A DNA stretch of 64,000 nucleotides. Origin: Faecalibacterium sp. I4-1-79. Lineage in GTDB: Bacteria > Bacillota > Clostridia > Oscillospirales > Ruminococcaceae. The notes below the pieces were generated by a model, which saw nothing but the letters and a program-made list of their open reading frames with translations, was not told where the DNA came from and ran no database searches. Where the stretch lies: NCBI RefSeq assembly GCF_023347235.1, contig NZ_CP094467.1:3162001-3226000 (forward strand), in the 5' to 3' direction. The translations under genes and the position numbers were made by a program. Below, one piece after another: positions 16,319 through 62,192 of the stretch (position 1 is its first letter; each line of letters opens with the position of its first letter).

Positions 16319-17821
16319 TTATGCCTTGGAAGTAGAGCTCTTCTTGGTAGCATGGAGGAACAGAGCCAGCATTGCGATGGCAAAGACAATGCCGATGGGG
16401 TAAGCAACGGCGGTGTTGTAAGCCACCAGCTTGCCGTCCGCATAGGTGTTGATCATCTTGCCCAGGCACTCGGGAGCCAGCACGAAGTAGGTGCAGGACA
16501 CAGCGCTCATGAAGGTTGCAGGCACGGCGGTGATCCAGAAGTTCTTCTTCTCCTTGAACAGGTACATGGAAGCAGCCCACAGGACGATCATAGCCAGCGT
16601 CTGGTTGGTCCAGCTGAAGTAACGCCAGATGACGGTGTAGTTGATGAAGCCCAGTGCATTGCCGATGCCAAGGAAGGCACCAACGCCCAGCACGGGGATG
16701 CAGAGCTTCAGGCGGTTTGCGTAGCTGTCCTGATCGATCTTGAGCCAGTCGGCCAGGGTCAGACGAGCGGAACGGAAGGCGGTATCACCAGAGGTGATGG
16801 GGCAGATAACGACACCGATCATAGCCAGTGCCACGCCGACATTACCCATGGTCTTGAGGCAGACGTCGTAGATAGCGGCAGACTGACCGGCAGCCAGAGC
16901 CTCGGCCAGACCGACCATCTTGCCGTCGGTAATGGTGTACAGTGCGCAGCCAGCAGCAGCCCAGATCAGAGCGATGATGCCCTCGCTGACCATTGCACCG
17001 TAGAATACGAAGTGACCCTGCTTCTCACTCTTCATGCAGCGAGCCATCAGAGGCGACTGGGTGGAGTGGAAACCGGAGATAGCACCACAGGCAACGGTGA
17101 TGAACATGAAGCTCCAGATAGGAGTGTTAGAGGGGTGCATATTGCTGAAGTTTGCCCAGATCTCGGGGATGGTGTAGGCGGGGTTGGTGAAGATACCAAA
17201 GATAACGCCCACGGCCATGATGATCAGGCAGATGCCGAACAGGGGGTAGATCTTACCGATGATGGCATCAATGGAGATAAAGGTTGCGATGAAGTAGTAC
17301 ACCAGAATGATGATCAGCCAGAACAGAGTGGTGGTCATCAGACCGGACATACCGCCGTTCTTGCACAGGGTAACGATCAGGCCTGCGGGGCCGACTGCGA
17401 ACACGGTACCGACCATGATCAGCAGCACCACAGAGAACACACGCATGATGTTCTGCATCACGGGGCCCAGATAGCGGCCGGTGACCTCAGCGATGGAAGC
17501 GCCGTCGTTGCGCTCGCTCATCATGCCGGAGAAGTAGTCATGTACGCCGCCGGCAAAGATGGTGCCGAAGGTGATCCACAGGAACACCACGGGACCCCAC
17601 AGAGCACCCTGCAGTGCACCAAAGATGGGGCCCAGACCTGCAATGTTCAGCAGCTGGACGAGGAACAGCTTCCACTGGGGCATCACAACGTAGTCAACGC
17701 CATCGTTGATGCGCACAGCAGGAGTTTCGCGGTCGTCCGGTCCGAACGTGTTGTCCACGATCTTACCATAGACAAAGTAGCCTACGATCAGAAGCGCCAG
17801 ACACAGTAAGAAACTAATCAT
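16319..17821 (-). CDS. cstA: CstA-family carbon-starvation transporter
   Basis: A 500-residue polytopic protein with the CstA signatures NIAGLGPIFGALQGALWGP and GTIFAGGVHDYFSGMMSER at about residues 62-120 and GFHSTQSPLMARCMKSE in the centre. The family takes up peptides or pyruvate when preferred carbon is scarce. It is shorter than the roughly 700-residue enterobacterial CstA, as is common in Firmicutes. AAGGAGG precedes the ATG. It stands alone. The leader holds an inverted repeat TTAACAC/GTGTTAA (17899-17925) that may be a control site. Confidence 0.92.
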   Translation of the reverse strand: MISFLLCLALLIVGYFVYGKIVDNTFGPDDRETPAVRINDGVDYVVMPQWKLFLVQLLNIAGLGPIFGALQGALWGPVVFLWITFGTIFAGGVHDYFSGMMSERNDGASIAEVTGRYLGPVMQNIMRVFSVVLLIMVGTVFAVGPAGLIVTLCKNGGMSGLMTTTLFWLIIILVYYFIATFISIDAIIGKIYPLFGICLIIMAVGVIFGIFTNPAYTIPEIWANFSNMHPSNTPIWSFMFITVACGAISGFHSTQSPLMARCMKSEKQGHFVFYGAMVSEGIIALIWAAAGCALYTITDGKMVGLAEALAAGQSAAIYDVCLKTMGNVGVALAMIGVVICPITSGDTAFRSARLTLADWLKIDQDSYANRLKLCIPVLGVGAFLGIGNALGFINYTVIWRYFSWTNQTLAMIVLWAASMYLFKEKKNFWITAVPATFMSAVSCTYFVLAPECLGKMINTYADGKLVAYNTAVAYPIGIVFAIAMLALFLHATKKSSTSKA

Positions 17822-17898
17822 ACCAGAAACCTCCTTTTTGATTTCAGCCGCCGACAGCTTATGCCATACTGCGGCTATGACCGATCTCTGGCTTCATG

Positions 17899-17925
17899 TT
17901 AACACCTTTTTCATAATTGTGTTAA
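17899..17925. promoter_or_regulatory. Inverted repeat upstream of cstA
   Basis: TTAACAC and GTGTTAA are separated by 13 bases, about 80-100 bases before cstA and beside AT-rich DNA that could contain its promoter. The regulator is unknown. Confidence 0.4.
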
Positions 17926-18187
17926 TATTTTTTAGGTATAGTTCCCATATCAAAAAGTATATAGCCGCTTATTTTATTTGTTTATGCAAACTTTTATTTT
18001 GTGGCGATAACACGTTTTAATTCGTCGTTCTGTTTCTCAAAAACTTTCTCCCGGAAACGGTCAAGTCCGCCCCCGCCAAACTTTGCGCCGCCTTTTTGTG
18101 CATTTTGCTTAATCGTTTGCGATTTTCTCCCCAAAACGTGGAATTTGGGACGAAAAGAAGGGAAATCCGCCCTCTCAGGCGCTCCCG
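17926..18187. other. Non-coding DNA between cstA leader and repeat block
   Basis: AT-rich near 17930-18000, then GC-rich without a supported gene. A CCCTCTCAGGCGCTCCCGAG fragment of repeat family A lies at about 18171-18190. Confidence 0.5.
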
Positions 18188-18350
18188 AGGGAACTCCCCC
18201 AGTCGCCTACGGCGACAGCCCCCTCGGAGATGGGGCCTTTGGCATAACGGTACGGTTTCCGGCTAAAGTGCAACGTTTCCGGGTGCGCCAGAGGCTCCCT
18301 CTTAGAGGGAGCTGGCAAAGCCGTCAGGCTTTGACTGAGGGAGTTCGTTC
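18188..18350 (+). repeat. Long family-A intergenic repeat, copy 1
   Basis: About 160 bases closely matching the reverse complement of 30207-30373. Landmarks: AACTCCCCCAGTC, GATGGGGCCTTTGGCAT, TTTCCGGCTAAAGTGCAA, CGCCAGAGGCTCCCTC, CTGAGGGAGTTC. Each end contains short stems of the CTCCC/GGGAG type. Confidence 0.8.
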
Positions 18351-18352
18351 CA

Positions 18353-18455
18353 AACCACCCTCCGTGAAAAAAGGGTACAGAAACGCCCGCAGGCGTTTCT
18401 GTACCCCAAAATTTAAAATAATTCTTCCTCTGAATATGGCTAGAGTGCAACGACG
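18353..18455 (-). repeat. Family-B hairpin repeat, copy B3
   Basis: Read on the minus strand: conserved head (ACTCTAGCCATATTCAGAGG, then AAGAATTATTTTAAATTT), a perfect 15-bp stem GGGTACAGAAACGCC (pairing across 18373-18406), loop TGCG, then tail TTTTTTCACGGAGGG. See the finding on family B. Confidence 0.85.
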
Positions 18456-18578
18456 ACGACCGCCGCCAGTGGCGGAAACAGGGAGGAGTTGTTGGGGCAG
18501 CGGCCAGCAAGACGCGCGTGCCGCCCAAGGCACGATGCGGATGCTGGGTGCCGCAACCCGGAAGACGCGGCGTGCATT

Positions 18579-19514
18579 TCAAATCTTCTTCCACCCGCTG
18601 TCCTTGATGGTGGCATCTGCCTGCTTGTGCAGCAGCTGCACAAACAGCTGCTCCTCCGGCTGCAAAGGCTCCCGCTCCGGGTACACCAGCACGTCCCGCA
18701 TCTGCTGCTTCTGCGCCGGGCAGCTGTGCAGCGCCAGATGGTACTGCTCCAGCGCGCGCTGCGGCATGGGGGACGACCACATATAGGCCGTGGGCAGATT
18801 CTGCAAAATGGAGAACTGGCTGCACCGCTCGTACACATGGATGCGGCGGTTGGGGTTCACCTCCCAGCGGGAAGCGGTGCTCTCGTCCCCGGGCAGATGG
18901 GTGTCGCCGTGCAGCACCTCGATGTAATCGTTCAGTTCGTCAAGGTTCTGCACCTGACGCCGCGCCAGCGGGCTGTCCTGACTGGTGAGCAGCAGGTAGG
19001 AAAACTCCATGATAGGCTCCTGCCGCAGACCGTGGCGCTGGCAGTAGCGCAGGTAGTAGTCCTCATCCTCGGCGGCGTAGCGCAGCAGCGCCATGTGGTA
19101 GCCCTGCCGCAGCACAAAGTCCAAGGCTTCAATGGCACCGCTCTCCCGGATATGTGCCCGCAGCTGCTCGCTGCGGGCTGCCTGCTGCAAAAAATCCACC
19201 GCCGCATAGGAGGCGTAGGTGGCATGGGTCAGCACCACCCGCAGCTCGGCGCAGCTGCGCTGCTGGTGCGCCTCCTGCTTCAGCTCGTCCACCTGCTGCA
19301 GCACCCGCTGCGCCTGCGCGATGAACCGCTTGCCCTGCTCGGTGGGGATCATGCCCGTGGAGGAGCGCTCGAAAATGCGCACCCCGTATTCCTCTTCCAG
19401 ATTCTTCAGCGCCTTGCTGACATTGGGCTGCGCCGCGTACAGCTGCTTTGCCGCCGCCGACACCGACCCCCATTTCATGATGGCTACCAGATACCGCAGT
19501 TCCGTAATATTCAT
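18579..19514 (-). CDS. LysR-family transcription regulator
   Basis: A 311-residue regulator with an N-terminal LysR winged helix (MNITELRYLVAIMKWGSVSA, AAKQLYAAQPNVSKALKNLE) and a substrate-binding C-domain. GGAGG lies before ATG 19514; the longer frame starting at 19577 lacks support. Target genes are not evident: cstA lies downstream beyond a repeat block, and the small gene at 19954 is divergent. The effector is unknown. Confidence 0.88.
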   Translation of the reverse strand: MNITELRYLVAIMKWGSVSAAAKQLYAAQPNVSKALKNLEEEYGVRIFERSSTGMIPTEQGKRFIAQAQRVLQQVDELKQEAHQQRSCAELRVVLTHATYASYAAVDFLQQAARSEQLRAHIRESGAIEALDFVLRQGYHMALLRYAAEDEDYYLRYCQRHGLRQEPIMEFSYLLLTSQDSPLARRQVQNLDELNDYIEVLHGDTHLPGDESTASRWEVNPNRRIHVYERCSQFSILQNLPTAYMWSSPMPQRALEQYHLALHSCPAQKQQMRDVLVYPEREPLQPEEQLFVQLLHKQADATIKDSGWKKI

Positions 19515-19623
19515 GAACCCCTCCGCATGGTTTGCAGTCGTAATCGTATTGTAACAATTTCTCCGCGCCGCTGTCAAGCGGGGGAGTTTTTTTGCCCTCA
19601 GCCGCCGGGCGGCGGGACGATTT

Positions 19624-19744
19624 GACGATTTAGAATGCGCTCCGCTTCGCTCTGCGCATAATCAGCGGAATTTGATTTTTATATTTGTGTTCCAGAAACG
19701 CCTGCGGGCGTTTCTGGAACACTTTTTCACCAGAGGGGTCGTAA
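19624..19744 (+). repeat. Family-B hairpin repeat, copy B5
   Basis: Head TAGAATGCGCTCCGCTTCGC and CATAATCAGCGGAA; perfect 16-bp stem GTGTTCCAGAAACGCC (19687-19702, pairing with 19707-19722), loop TGCG; tail TTTTTCACCAGAGGGGTCG. It faces copy B4 tail to tail. Confidence 0.85.
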
Positions 19745-19766
19745 AGATGAACGGCAGCTGCTTACC

Positions 19767-19889
19767 GTTACGACCCCTCCCGTGAAAAGGCAATTCTGGA
19801 AAATCCGCAGATTTTCCAGAATTGCGAATTAAAAATAATTTTTCCGCTGAACATGGCCAAAGCGCACGCGGCGGCCATTTCAAATCGTT
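19767..19889 (-). repeat. Family-B hairpin repeat, copy B4
   Basis: Read on the minus strand: head AAATGGCCGCC, GCCATGTTCAGCGGAAAAAT; perfect 16-bp stem GCAATTCTGGAAAATC (pairing across 19790-19825), loop TGCG; tail CTTTTCACGGGAGGGGTCG. The stem sequence is unrelated to that of B5, only 45 bases away. Confidence 0.85.
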
Positions 19890-19953
19890 CCCCCTTGCAC
19901 CAAAGCCCCCGGGTGCTATATAATAAGGAAAAACACAAAGGAGGGGCTGTACC

Positions 19954-20166
19954 ATGCCGGAATACCGCGTGCTGCGCATTGACGAGCAGCTGTACGGCTG
20001 CGAGGAGCTGCCCGCCGGGCAGCCGGTGCTGTGCGATGTGACCCTGACCGATGCCGCCGGGGCTGCCCGCATTCTGCCCTACCCGGACAGGGAGCTGACA
20101 TTTCTTGGCATCGACGAGGGAGACACCGTCTGTCTGCTGCCGGACGGCACCCTGCACAAGCTGTAA
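19954..20166 (+). CDS. Small hypothetical protein (70 residues)
   Basis: Starts MPEYRVLRIDEQLYGCEELP and ends GDTVCLLPDGTLHKL. It is an acidic soluble protein with beta-strand-like alternation and no signal peptide. GGAGG lies before the ATG and a TATATAATA -10-like box lies about 40 bases upstream. It is followed after 11 bases by the phosphatase gene, so the two are cotranscribed. I do not recognise a family. Confidence 0.7.
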   Translation: MPEYRVLRIDEQLYGCEELPAGQPVLCDVTLTDAAGAARILPYPDRELTFLGIDEGDTVCLLPDGTLHKL

Positions 20167-20177
20167 GGAGTATTTTT

Positions 20178-20717
20178 ATGCATAATATCTATTTCACCCG
20201 TCACGGCGAGACGGTATGGAACGTGGAAAATAAGATCTGCGGCATGACCGACAGCCCGCTGACCGCCCACGGGCAGGAGCAGGCGCGGCAGCTGGGCGCG
20301 CTTGTCCGGGACAGCGGCCTGCACATCGACGAGATCTTGTACTCTCCCCTCTCCCGCGCCGCCGACACCGCAAAAGCCATTGCCGCCGCTACCGGTCTGC
20401 CCGCCCGCTGCGAGCCCCGCCTGCGGGAGCAGTGCTTCGGCAAATACGAGGGCACGCCCCGGGACGGTGCGGAGTTCCGCATCTCCAAGACCCACTTTGC
20501 CGACCGCTATGTGGGCGGCGAAAGCATGATGCAGCTGGCGCAGCGCATCTACAACCTGCTGGACGAGTTGAAGGCGGACACCGGCAAGACTTACCTGCTG
20601 GTGGCACACAACGGCATTGCCCGGGTGGTGCACTCCTATTTTTACGATATGACCAACGAGGAGTACGCCGCTGCGGGCATCAAAAACTGCCAGCTGGTGG
20701 AATATACCTTTGAATAA
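20178..20717 (+). CDS. Histidine phosphatase (phosphoglycerate-mutase superfamily)
   Basis: A 179-residue enzyme with the RHGETVWN motif at residues 8-15 (catalytic His 9), SPLSRAADTA and a second His in VAHNGIARVV. AAGGAG precedes ATG 20178. The size suits a broad-specificity phosphatase (GpmB/CobC-like) rather than glycolytic mutase. It is paired with the 70-residue protein gene upstream. The substrate is unknown. Confidence 0.9.
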   Translation: MHNIYFTRHGETVWNVENKICGMTDSPLTAHGQEQARQLGALVRDSGLHIDEILYSPLSRAADTAKAIAAATGLPARCEPRLREQCFGKYEGTPRDGAEFRISKTHFADRYVGGESMMQLAQRIYNLLDELKADTGKTYLLVAHNGIARVVHSYFYDMTNEEYAAAGIKNCQLVEYTFE

Positions 20718-27747: not shown

Positions 27748-27868
27748 GAGACGATTGAAAATGGCTTCCGCTTGCGCTCTAGCCATGTTCAGCGGAAAAA
27801 TTGTTTTTATTTTCGGGATAGCGGAGCGTCTGCGGACGCTCCGCTATCCCATTTTCACGGGAGGGGTT
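27748..27868 (+). repeat. Family-B hairpin repeat, copy B1
   Basis: Head AAATGGCTTCCGCTTGCGCT, then AGCCATGTTCAGCGGAAAAA; perfect 16-bp stem GGGATAGCGGAGCGTC (27815-27830 with 27835-27850), loop TGCG; tail ATTTTCACGGGAGGGG. It is antisense to both neighbouring genes. Confidence 0.85.
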
Positions 27869-27877
27869 CACGCAAAA

Positions 27878-27912
27878 AGCCCCGGGGAGCGGGGTGCTCC
27901 TCGGGGCGGGGT
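27878..27912 (-). terminator. Terminator of lipoprotein gene 1
   Basis: GCCCCGGGGAGCGGGG with CCTCGGGGC-type pairing, and a run of T on the minus strand. Near-identical copies follow the other two lipoprotein genes. Confidence 0.7.
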
Positions 27913-58184: not shown

Positions 58185-58210
58185 ATACTTTCGGGTTTCC
58201 TCTAACAAAT

Positions 58211-58328
58211 GATTTAAAATGCCCTCCGTTTCACTCTGGGCATATTCAGCGGAAGAATTATTTTTAATTTCGCGTTTGTCGCGCTCTGCGGAGCGCTCCA
58301 AACGCTATTTTCACGGGAGGGGTCGTAA
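58211..58328 (+). repeat. Family-B hairpin repeat, copy B2
   Basis: Head TTAAAATGCCCTCCGTTTCA and CATATTCAGCGGAAGAATTA; stem GCGTTTGTCGCGCTC (58272-58286) pairs with 58291-58305 at 13 of 15; loop TGCG; tail ATTTTCACGGGAGGGGTCG. It is followed by a family-A fragment. Confidence 0.8.
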
Positions 58329-58368
58329 CGGGAAACGGCAGCAGCAGCGCTCGCTCCCCCGGGGGGAG

Positions 58369-58581
58369 CTGTCGCGCAGCGACTGAGGGGCTGCAAATCG
58401 GCGGAGCCGGAAAAAACGGTTAAAAGATCTTCACGCCGAACAGGCGTGAATCTTCAGTTTTTTCCGGTGCAGCCCTCCTCTTTGGGGTTAAAAGGGGCGA
58501 GCAGCCCCTTTTTCGTGGCTCCAGCGCGTCGAAATCGCTGGCACTTTTCTGGTTCTCTTTTGGTGTCAAAAGAGAACATCC
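58369..58581. repeat. Family-C repeat, copy C2, ending in the mnmE terminator
   Basis: Shares GCTGTCGCGCAGCGACTGAG, GGAAAAAACGGTTAAAA and the end ACTTTTCTGGTTCTCTTTT with C1. The inner hairpin (CTTCACGCC-GAACA-GGCGTGAA) differs in sequence from that of C1 but pairs. The final stem GTTCTCTTTT/AAAAGAGAAC follows mnmE on the minus strand. Confidence 0.75.
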
Positions 58582-62085: not shown

Positions 62086-62156
62086 CCATTTGAGAGAAAG
62101 ATTTCGGCAAAAAACAGGCAGTTTCTCCAAATTTTGAGAAGAATGACTTTAAAAAC

Positions 62157-62192
62157 ACAGGACCGGACAGCCTGCGGGCTGTCCGGTCCTGT
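62157..62192 (-). terminator. Terminator after jag
   Basis: Arms ACAGGACCGGACAGCC and GGCTGTCCGGTCCTGT around a 4-base loop. Confidence 0.85.

Follow-up and report, generated by a model that had tools for sequence, protein, structure and literature searches.

Results

Family B copies in the window

The window, by which we mean the whole stretch of 64,000 nucleotides from Faecalibacterium sp. I4-1-79 analysed here, contains five copies of a dispersed repeat, family B, found where an earlier note on this DNA had placed them, with copies 1 and 3 on the minus strand and copies 2 and 3 forming a single tail-to-tail inverted pair (Table 1). The places given in that note were right, but its copy limits required revision, since the 5′ side of copy 1 is truncated and the TCGTAA end is missing from copy 4. 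Its description of the variable stem was confirmed: pairing is perfect over 15–16 bp in four copies and covers 13 of 15 pairs in the fifth (58272–58305), and the TGCG loop is closed by C-G and has the same orientation in all five. The internal mismatches of copy 5 are common to 13 parsed copies with an identical stem. RNA folding gave z-scores of −3.2 to −5.5 for the five copies. Rfam, searched at the gathering score, returned two tRNAs elsewhere in the window and no match to family B; at four loci, Rfam matches lay far below gathering, one of them over a unit (RsaF, 24 of 60 bits).

TGCG hairpins that resemble the family B stem and have no head or tail exist beyond these five copies. One, a perfect 16-bp hairpin at 62157–62192 (match of covariance model R1 at 62138–62192), is either an ordinary terminator-like hairpin or a relic of family B.

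Table 1. Positions of family B copies and their parts in the window.
Feature	Position	Strand	Basis and remarks
Copy 1	18358..18460	-	Covariance model R1 match, 73.4 bits; alignments; 5′ side cut; tail side joined to another repeat
Copy 1 variable stem-loop, TGCG loop	18372..18407	-	Terminator-like scan and sequence
Copy 2, left unit of tail-to-tail inverted pair	19625..19744	+	R1 match 19625-19760, 144.5 bits
Copy 2 hairpin 1 (ATGCGC/GCGCAT)	19635..19659	+	Sequence and covariation of helix
Copy 2 pseudoknot partners (probable)	19641..19669	+	TCCGC 19641-19645 with GCGGA 19665-19669
Copy 2 variable stem-loop, 16 bp	19687..19722	+	Sequence, terminator-like scan
Copy 3, right unit of inverted pair	19767..19888	-	R1 match 19752-19888, 141.6 bits
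Copy 3 hairpin 1 (ATGGCC/GGCCAT)	19853..19878	-	Sequence and alignment
Copy 3 variable stem-loop, 16 bp	19790..19825	-	Commonest stem type, 16/240 parsed
Copy 4	27748..27868	+	R1 match 27751-27885, 124.4 bits; without TCGTAA end
Copy 4 hairpin 1 (ATGGCT/AGCCAT)	27761..27786	+	Sequence
Copy 4 variable stem-loop, 16 bp	27815..27850	+	Sequence
Copy 5	58208..58328	+	R1 match 58209-58344, 129.8 bits
Copy 5 hairpin 1 (ATGCCC/GGGCAT)	58219..58243	+	Sequence
Copy 5 variable stem-loop, 13/15 pairs	58272..58305	+	Sequence

Anatomy of the unit

The unit spans about 120 bp, larger than previously described, and consists, from 5′ to 3′, of an outer end ACGATTT, a first hairpin (hairpin 1), CAGCGGAA, an AT run, the 16-bp stem with its TGCG loop, T4–T5 and CACGGGAGGGGTCGTAA. 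Some copies carry a further nGGnAAACGGCATTT and a third hairpin starting GCAGCGCC; the motif GCAGCRC is present in 41 of 240 units. We rejected this third hairpin as a UNCG hairpin and make no such claim for it, since the loop in its usual core, CTTTC-TGC-GAAAG, is three bases long.

What had been called the head of the repeat is conserved, as claimed, but is actually the 3′ part of hairpin 1, which has the form ATGNNN, a loop of about 12–16 bases and NNNCAT, and which also covaries. Parsing with ATG and CAT as anchors recovered hairpin 1 from 185 of 254 units, and all three of its variable pairs are Watson-Crick in 173 of these; the main versions are CGC/GCG (56), GCC/GGC (47), CCC/GGG (46), GCT/AGC (17) and TGC/GCA (6). 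The TCCGC of its loop is complementary to GCGGA within CAGCGGAA, and the two probably form a pseudoknot: the corresponding cells are 94.8% paired in 23 copies and an exact four-base complement occurs in 140 of the 185 parsed units, although the partners are largely invariant and are therefore weakly tested by covariation.

The first T run 3′ of the stem is short, with four or five bases in 227 of 240 units (T4 in 150, T5 in 77). The outer end could be located in 185 of 240 units, reads ACGATTT in 128 of these and follows a purine-rich flank. The ends of many copies are thus altered: of 240 units, 158 have an ACGATT-like head and 89 have TCGT within the tail.

Conservation and covariation

The flanks, which the earlier note had proposed to be conserved, exceed chance expectation in their motif counts and are conserved genome-wide. 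With up to two mismatches, TTTTCACGGGAGGGG matches the window four times against 0.21 expected, and the 21-base tail, with up to three, matches 38 places in the genome against none for a reversed control. From 33 distinct tail matches, we dropped 10 without a recognisable head and kept 23 copies, picked by head and tail and independently of loop or stem; all 23 contain CTGCGG. Testing covariation in these copies, with the structure drawn from one of them, we found standard pairs in 93.3% of 616 pair cells (shuffled mean 74.4%), changes on both sides in 111 pair cells (33.7 in shuffles) and a covariation score of 0.484, compared with 0.157 when shuffled and at most 0.125 when slid. Thus, the arms do change together around a fixed loop, with compensated pairs well above the shuffles, as had been proposed.

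For the wider set, a stem parser that accepts five loop types only read 254 of 322 units and left 68 unparsed; the TGCG loop in 249 of the 254 is partly by construction, because the parser admits only these types. No inversion of the loop was seen, a change that this parser would have overlooked. Ordinary terminators, too, have TGCG as their most frequent loop (11 of 259).

Copy number and distribution

The covariance-model search proposed in the earlier note revealed a large family. In G000, the genome to which the window belongs, at least 148 sequences match at E<=0.1 (148 of the best 150 candidates), and relatives have copies as well. Among the best 150 candidates of each genome, G006 has at least 150 matches and G003 has 145, both genomes being about 96–97% identical to that of the window, and the more distant G010 has 79. 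At E<=1e-6, eight of 31 genomes of the genus are copy-rich (72 to at least 106 matches), two have one or two matches and 21 have none; weak matches (E 1e-5 to 1e-3) occur singly in G001, G016, G019 and G030 and twice in G041. When 148 genomes drawn from the taxonomic family were scanned with stricter filters and the best 22 candidates per genome, G000 matched and the other 147, at least one of them in the same genus, did not. Within what was searched, family B therefore appears confined to part of one genus. A plasmid search returned nothing for family B. One strict pattern gave no match in viral contigs and, in genome contigs, two single matches in distant groups, near the chance number by our own estimate; near relatives were possibly excluded from both sets.

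Family B-like sequence is also held by 20 unannotated 'Bacteriophage sp.' records from human faeces (MT838344.1 and 19 others), which may be bacterial fragments labelled as phage.

Genomic placement and orientation

We next consider where the units lie, using gene context from a retrained gene caller with close genomes pooled. Of 240 units, 236 could be placed, as 192 elements, seven of which are at stretch ends. The other 185 are flanked by genes on both sides; not one of these has its centre within a called gene, and some overlap called gene ends. Tail-to-tail pairs account for 88 of the 236 placed units, that is, 44 pairs among the 192 elements. These pairs lie between convergent genes in 23 cases, codirectional genes in 20 and divergent genes in one; the 141 single units lie between convergent genes in 51, codirectional in 79 and divergent in 11, compared with 18% convergent, 54% codirectional and 27% divergent for background intergenic bases (p-values for this comparison with the background are too small, owing to the pooling). 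Family B avoids promoters and favours gene ends, and it is not oriented like a terminator: single units between codirectional genes show no orientation bias (37 sense, 42 antisense, p=0.65), and in the window copies 4 and 5 each run antisense to the gene on either side. Within positions 17800–20200, two of three copies pass a simple terminator scan, which finds five sites in all against 3.3 in shuffles. The suggestion that the unit is a terminator cassette thus agrees with the strong hairpin, the T4–T5 run and the enrichment between convergent genes, but not with the missing sense bias between codirectional genes, and a terminator role for family B is possible.

Stem diversity and exchange at orthologous loci

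The stem had been described as different in most copies. The window stems do differ; however, stems are related across the family (roughly GNAATTCCGGAANGTC) and several occur at many loci, with 150 distinct stems, 96 of them perfect, among the 254 parsed. As had been anticipated, close relatives share the element at orthologous loci yet differ in its stem. At the copy 1 locus, the stem is GGGTACAGAAACGCC in G000, GGGCTAGCGGAGCGTC in G006 and GGGCTAGCGGAGCGTC with one G-T defect in G003. At the locus of copies 2 and 3, G000 has the pair, G003 a different repeat and G006 a composite with the copy 3 stem unchanged. Copy 4 is absent from its place in G003 and G006, where another repeat lies. At the copy 5 locus, G010 has a unit in the same place with a wholly different stem, and G003 and G006 have only ATGATTTGAA, probably a deletion scar.

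Omitting six comparisons that involve G010 from a total of 73 left 67 ortholog comparisons among G000, G003 and G006, counts that again pool close genomes. The stems are identical over 16 pairs in 36 of these, differ at five or more in 19 and at fewer in 12; by a stricter two-arm rule, 38 have the same stem, 16 are replaced on both arms and 13 are otherwise. Median identity in the replaced loci (n=16), with that of the same-stem loci (n=38) in brackets, is 0.95 (0.94) for the outer flank, 0.84 (0.87) for hairpin 1, 0.79 (0.93) for the pseudoknot and AT run, 0.71 (0.93) for the tail and 0.48 (0.91) for the centre. Since the outer flank is kept and the tail and centre have diverged, breakpoints tend to fall inside the unit beside the stem. 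We infer that recombination between copies causes stem replacement, and replaced stems could also reflect the replacement of whole copies. Flank and stem identity are nearly uncorrelated within genomes (rho 0.09, 6322 pairs; 223 of 254 units usable). What occupies an orthologous slot is usually another hairpin or repeat, so exchange between repeats in one slot may be as important as insertion; the only repeat-free slot seen, in G006, gave no exact element ends.

A second repeat family (CTCCCTCAGTC...GGGAGTTCGT, with ends ACGAACTCCC) lies in the window at 18190–18350 and, in L087, L099 and L100, at the sites of copies 2/3 and copy 4. In relatives, it sits in the intergenic slots that family B also uses. 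The two have the ACGA/TCGT termini in common, and by eye the small hairpins of the second family vary on both arms too.

How stem pairing is kept

Pairing over the inner 15 pairs is perfect in 180 of the 254 parsed stems; a single defect occurs in 28, two defects in 30 and more than two in 16. The one-defect stems (pairs 1–14) comprise 23 distinct sequences, each in a single copy, with 11 G-T, nine A-C and three other defects. For comparison, we took 259 ordinary terminators from the same stretches, that is, hairpins downstream of genes found by a different search allowing at most one defect, in which convergent cases may count once per strand and some hairpins may be unit relics; 131 are perfect and 128 have one defect (90 G-T, 29 A-C, nine other). 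The one-defect share is clearly lower in family B (23/119 against 128/259, p=2e-8, a value made too small by the pooling of related genomes and obtained across different detection methods, with the 46 of 254 stems that have two or more defects lying outside the comparison). The G-T:A-C ratio of 11:9 in family B against 90:29 in terminators is not significant alone (Fisher p=0.063), and the loss of wobble bias in family B stem defects is suggestive.

Among perfect stems one pair apart, we counted 22 transversions and 21 transitions, as distinct neighbours rather than events, against a total of about 1.2 expected from shuffled columns. Standing defects, at 20 transitions to three transversions, differ from these paired steps (p=0.003). 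Paired changes can also be seen in place: GGACTGCC/GGACTACC, stems found nowhere else in the data, and a paired transversion, GAAATACAG/GAAATTCAG, again unique, where G000 and G006 have a truncated relic without hairpin 1. Two further candidates may be exchanges. The ortholog pairs with in-place paired changes have 94–98% flank identity.

Signs of mobility

Family B had also been suggested to be the scar of a hairpin-templated mobile element. Taken broadly, as meaning a REP- or MITE-like repeat, the mobile-element part of this suggestion holds, and movement may be hairpin-templated. The 26 intact pairs terminate near ACGATTT...AAATCGT; 23 of them lack any direct repeat and three have one of 1–3 bases. 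A limited search found no transposase linked to family B. Four regions between widely spaced facing units were considered as places for an autonomous element, and the ORFs in the two that were read look, by reading, like housekeeping genes. Y1 proteins are encoded in G000 and G010, with one carrying an internal stop in G003 and no match in G006. A RAYT/Y1 link was rejected: G006 is copy-rich without a Y1, G003 has only the interrupted gene, and G012 has an unbroken Y1 but no copies. Two Y1 (IS200-like) genes of G000, of equal score, lie at C1:2540218–2540574 and C1:2662364–2662720, one of them about 240 bases from a family B unit.

Discussion

ERIC and RUP are bacterial MITEs. EFAR is named among the bacterial MITEs in PMC3733652. 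Family B is like these in being short, non-coding and intergenic, with inverted ends and no transposase of its own, and unlike them in that no target duplication and no parent insertion sequence were found. PMC3733652 and PMC3116915 describe REP and REPIN sequences as intergenic palindromic units with up to hundreds of copies per genome, often inverted dimers, some with unlike stems, mostly between convergent or codirectional genes and with compensatory changes reported in REPIN hairpins; CGTC REPs lack a dedicated transposase, and neither Faecalibacterium nor Firmicutes appears in the text of the REP paper compared. Family B is likewise many-copied, intergenic, palindromic and often arranged as inverted dimers. 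However, according to the same papers, REP units measure 20–40 bp (20–60 bp as a class criterion), against about 120 bp here, and CGTC REPs have stems of 8–9 bp, against 16. Family B further has an extra hairpin, which covaries and probably takes part in a pseudoknot; stem defects without a clear G-T excess, G-T pairing being cited in the REP literature as a sign of transcription; no GTAG tag, its outer ACGATTT (in reverse AAATCGT, then C in 59%) being only loosely CGTC-like; and no consistently resident RAYT or Y1 of the kind that defines RAYT-type REPINs (Y1 genes in G000 and G010, none matched in G006, an internal stop in G003). BIMEs (bacterial interspersed mosaic elements; PMC3116915) similarly form modular palindromic-repeat arrays in one intergenic slot, with sequences, host group and module types unlike those of family B. 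Family B thus works like a REP/REPIN- or MITE-type repeat, and departs from tagged REPs and classical MITEs in tag, unit size, resident RAYT and target duplication. Searches of the open-licence PubMed Central literature showed, among the papers listed, no description of such a repeat for these gut bacteria, and family B is new as a family within this known broad class of small mobile repeats.

How, then, do its palindromes stay paired? Although the stem sequence changes between copies, its pairing is perfect in most of them, a combination that suggests DNA-level remaking or exchange. On balance, we favour the view that family B is a non-autonomous REP/REPIN- or MITE-like intergenic repeat, whose palindromes would be kept perfect by DNA-level arm copying and inter-copy exchange. 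The repeat would have multiplied by transposition to the roughly 80–150 copies counted in some species. New stems would form when a mutation in one arm is copied into the other; template switching or hairpin-primed synthesis as the DNA replicates would be the simplest route. Stem swaps, seen in close relatives as the frequent replacement of a stem with neighbouring element sequence while the outer flank is kept, would result from recombination between copies within the conserved sequence on either side of the stem. Once transcribed, the stem may also act in RNA termination or stabilisation, either incidentally or as a second function. Template switching can produce paired stem changes in one event, according to PMC8794818, and the hairpins described there resemble family B in their perfect stems, paired changes without visible intermediates and retained loop, but concern rRNA genes, with TNCG loops not enriched among instantaneous compensations. 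Against this preferred view stand the UNCG-type loop, special in RNA and not in DNA (PMC8794818), a frequent stem type that keeps two uncorrected mismatches, the defect contrast with terminators that falls short of significance alone (p=0.063), the lack of target duplication in 23 of 26 intact pairs, and the failure of a limited search to link a transposase to family B. Our confidences in this and the following readings are not mutually exclusive.

A rather unlikely, if serious, alternative is that the unit is a terminator or 3′-end stabiliser, selected as an RNA hairpin with its pairing kept by ordinary compensatory evolution. The strong RNA folds, the UNCG-type loop, the T4/T5 run (227/240) and the enrichment between convergent genes agree with it, as do the two of three copies in 17800–20200 that pass the terminator scan, some orthologous slots that by reading hold an ordinary terminator-like hairpin instead, and the truncated relic, whose stem is still perfect and lies shortly after the end of a gene. 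It accords poorly with the even split of 37 sense to 42 antisense units between codirectional genes, the antisense position of copies 4 and 5, and the equal frequency of transversion and transition steps. Compared with ordinary terminators, family B stems have fewer defects, and these show no clear wobble bias. On these grounds arm copying, which the earlier note raised as one arm being remade from its partner, may be a slightly better fit than the note's other proposal, simple selection of the fold.

It is unlikely that the stem is a transposon end read as a single-stranded hairpin by an HUH/Y1 transposase (IS200/IS605, RAYT-like), with movement requiring perfect pairing. Inverted pairs, palindromes and the lack of target duplication do resemble REPINs (PMC3116915 and PMC3733652), and G000 and G010 encode Y1 proteins; however, Y1 presence and copy richness disagree in G006, G003 and G012, a non-systematic look noticed no Y1 gene bracketed by units (one G000 gene lying about 240 bases from a unit), and the truncated relic keeps its perfect stem. 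A young repeat, with too little time for defects and a stem diversity that predates its expansion, seems quite improbable: many stems are shared and each one-defect stem occurs in a single parsed copy, but the 96 distinct perfect stems, the widely divergent heads and tails and the in-place paired changes at 94–98% flank identity argue against youth. That the stem is a locus-specific address or identity tag, as the five differing window stems had suggested, is already contradicted and hardly credible, because stems recur at many loci (one 16 times among 240 units in three genomes) and orthologous loci differ, with both arms replaced in 16 of 67 comparisons.

Returning to arm copying and exchange, a bolder form, which we consider a long shot, is a self-remaking palindrome: the TGCG hairpin would prime or redirect synthesis on single-stranded replication intermediates, so that arms are rewritten faster than by point mutation, and the same fold-back would drive copying to new intergenic sites without a dedicated transposase.

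For this group of gut bacteria, family B is a large and structured addition to the repeats described, limited to one genus. Its hundreds of copies in close relatives constitute a natural experiment on RNA selection versus DNA-level arm copying, in which both the G-T/A-C defect ratio and the kinds of paired change provide direct tests, and such strong intergenic exchange could mislead strain typing and terminator annotation.

Other hairpin-rich sequences were seen beside family B. In L011 (1486–1720) and L023 (1330–1527), one such sequence is seemingly inserted in or beside the TGCG loop of a variable stem. In the window, 3′ of copy 5, positions 58330–58560 hold a long composite hairpin array (including GTTCTCTTTTG...CAAAAGAGAAC); G010 has a similar array of changed sequence at the corresponding place, and G012 and G005 contain parts of the array.
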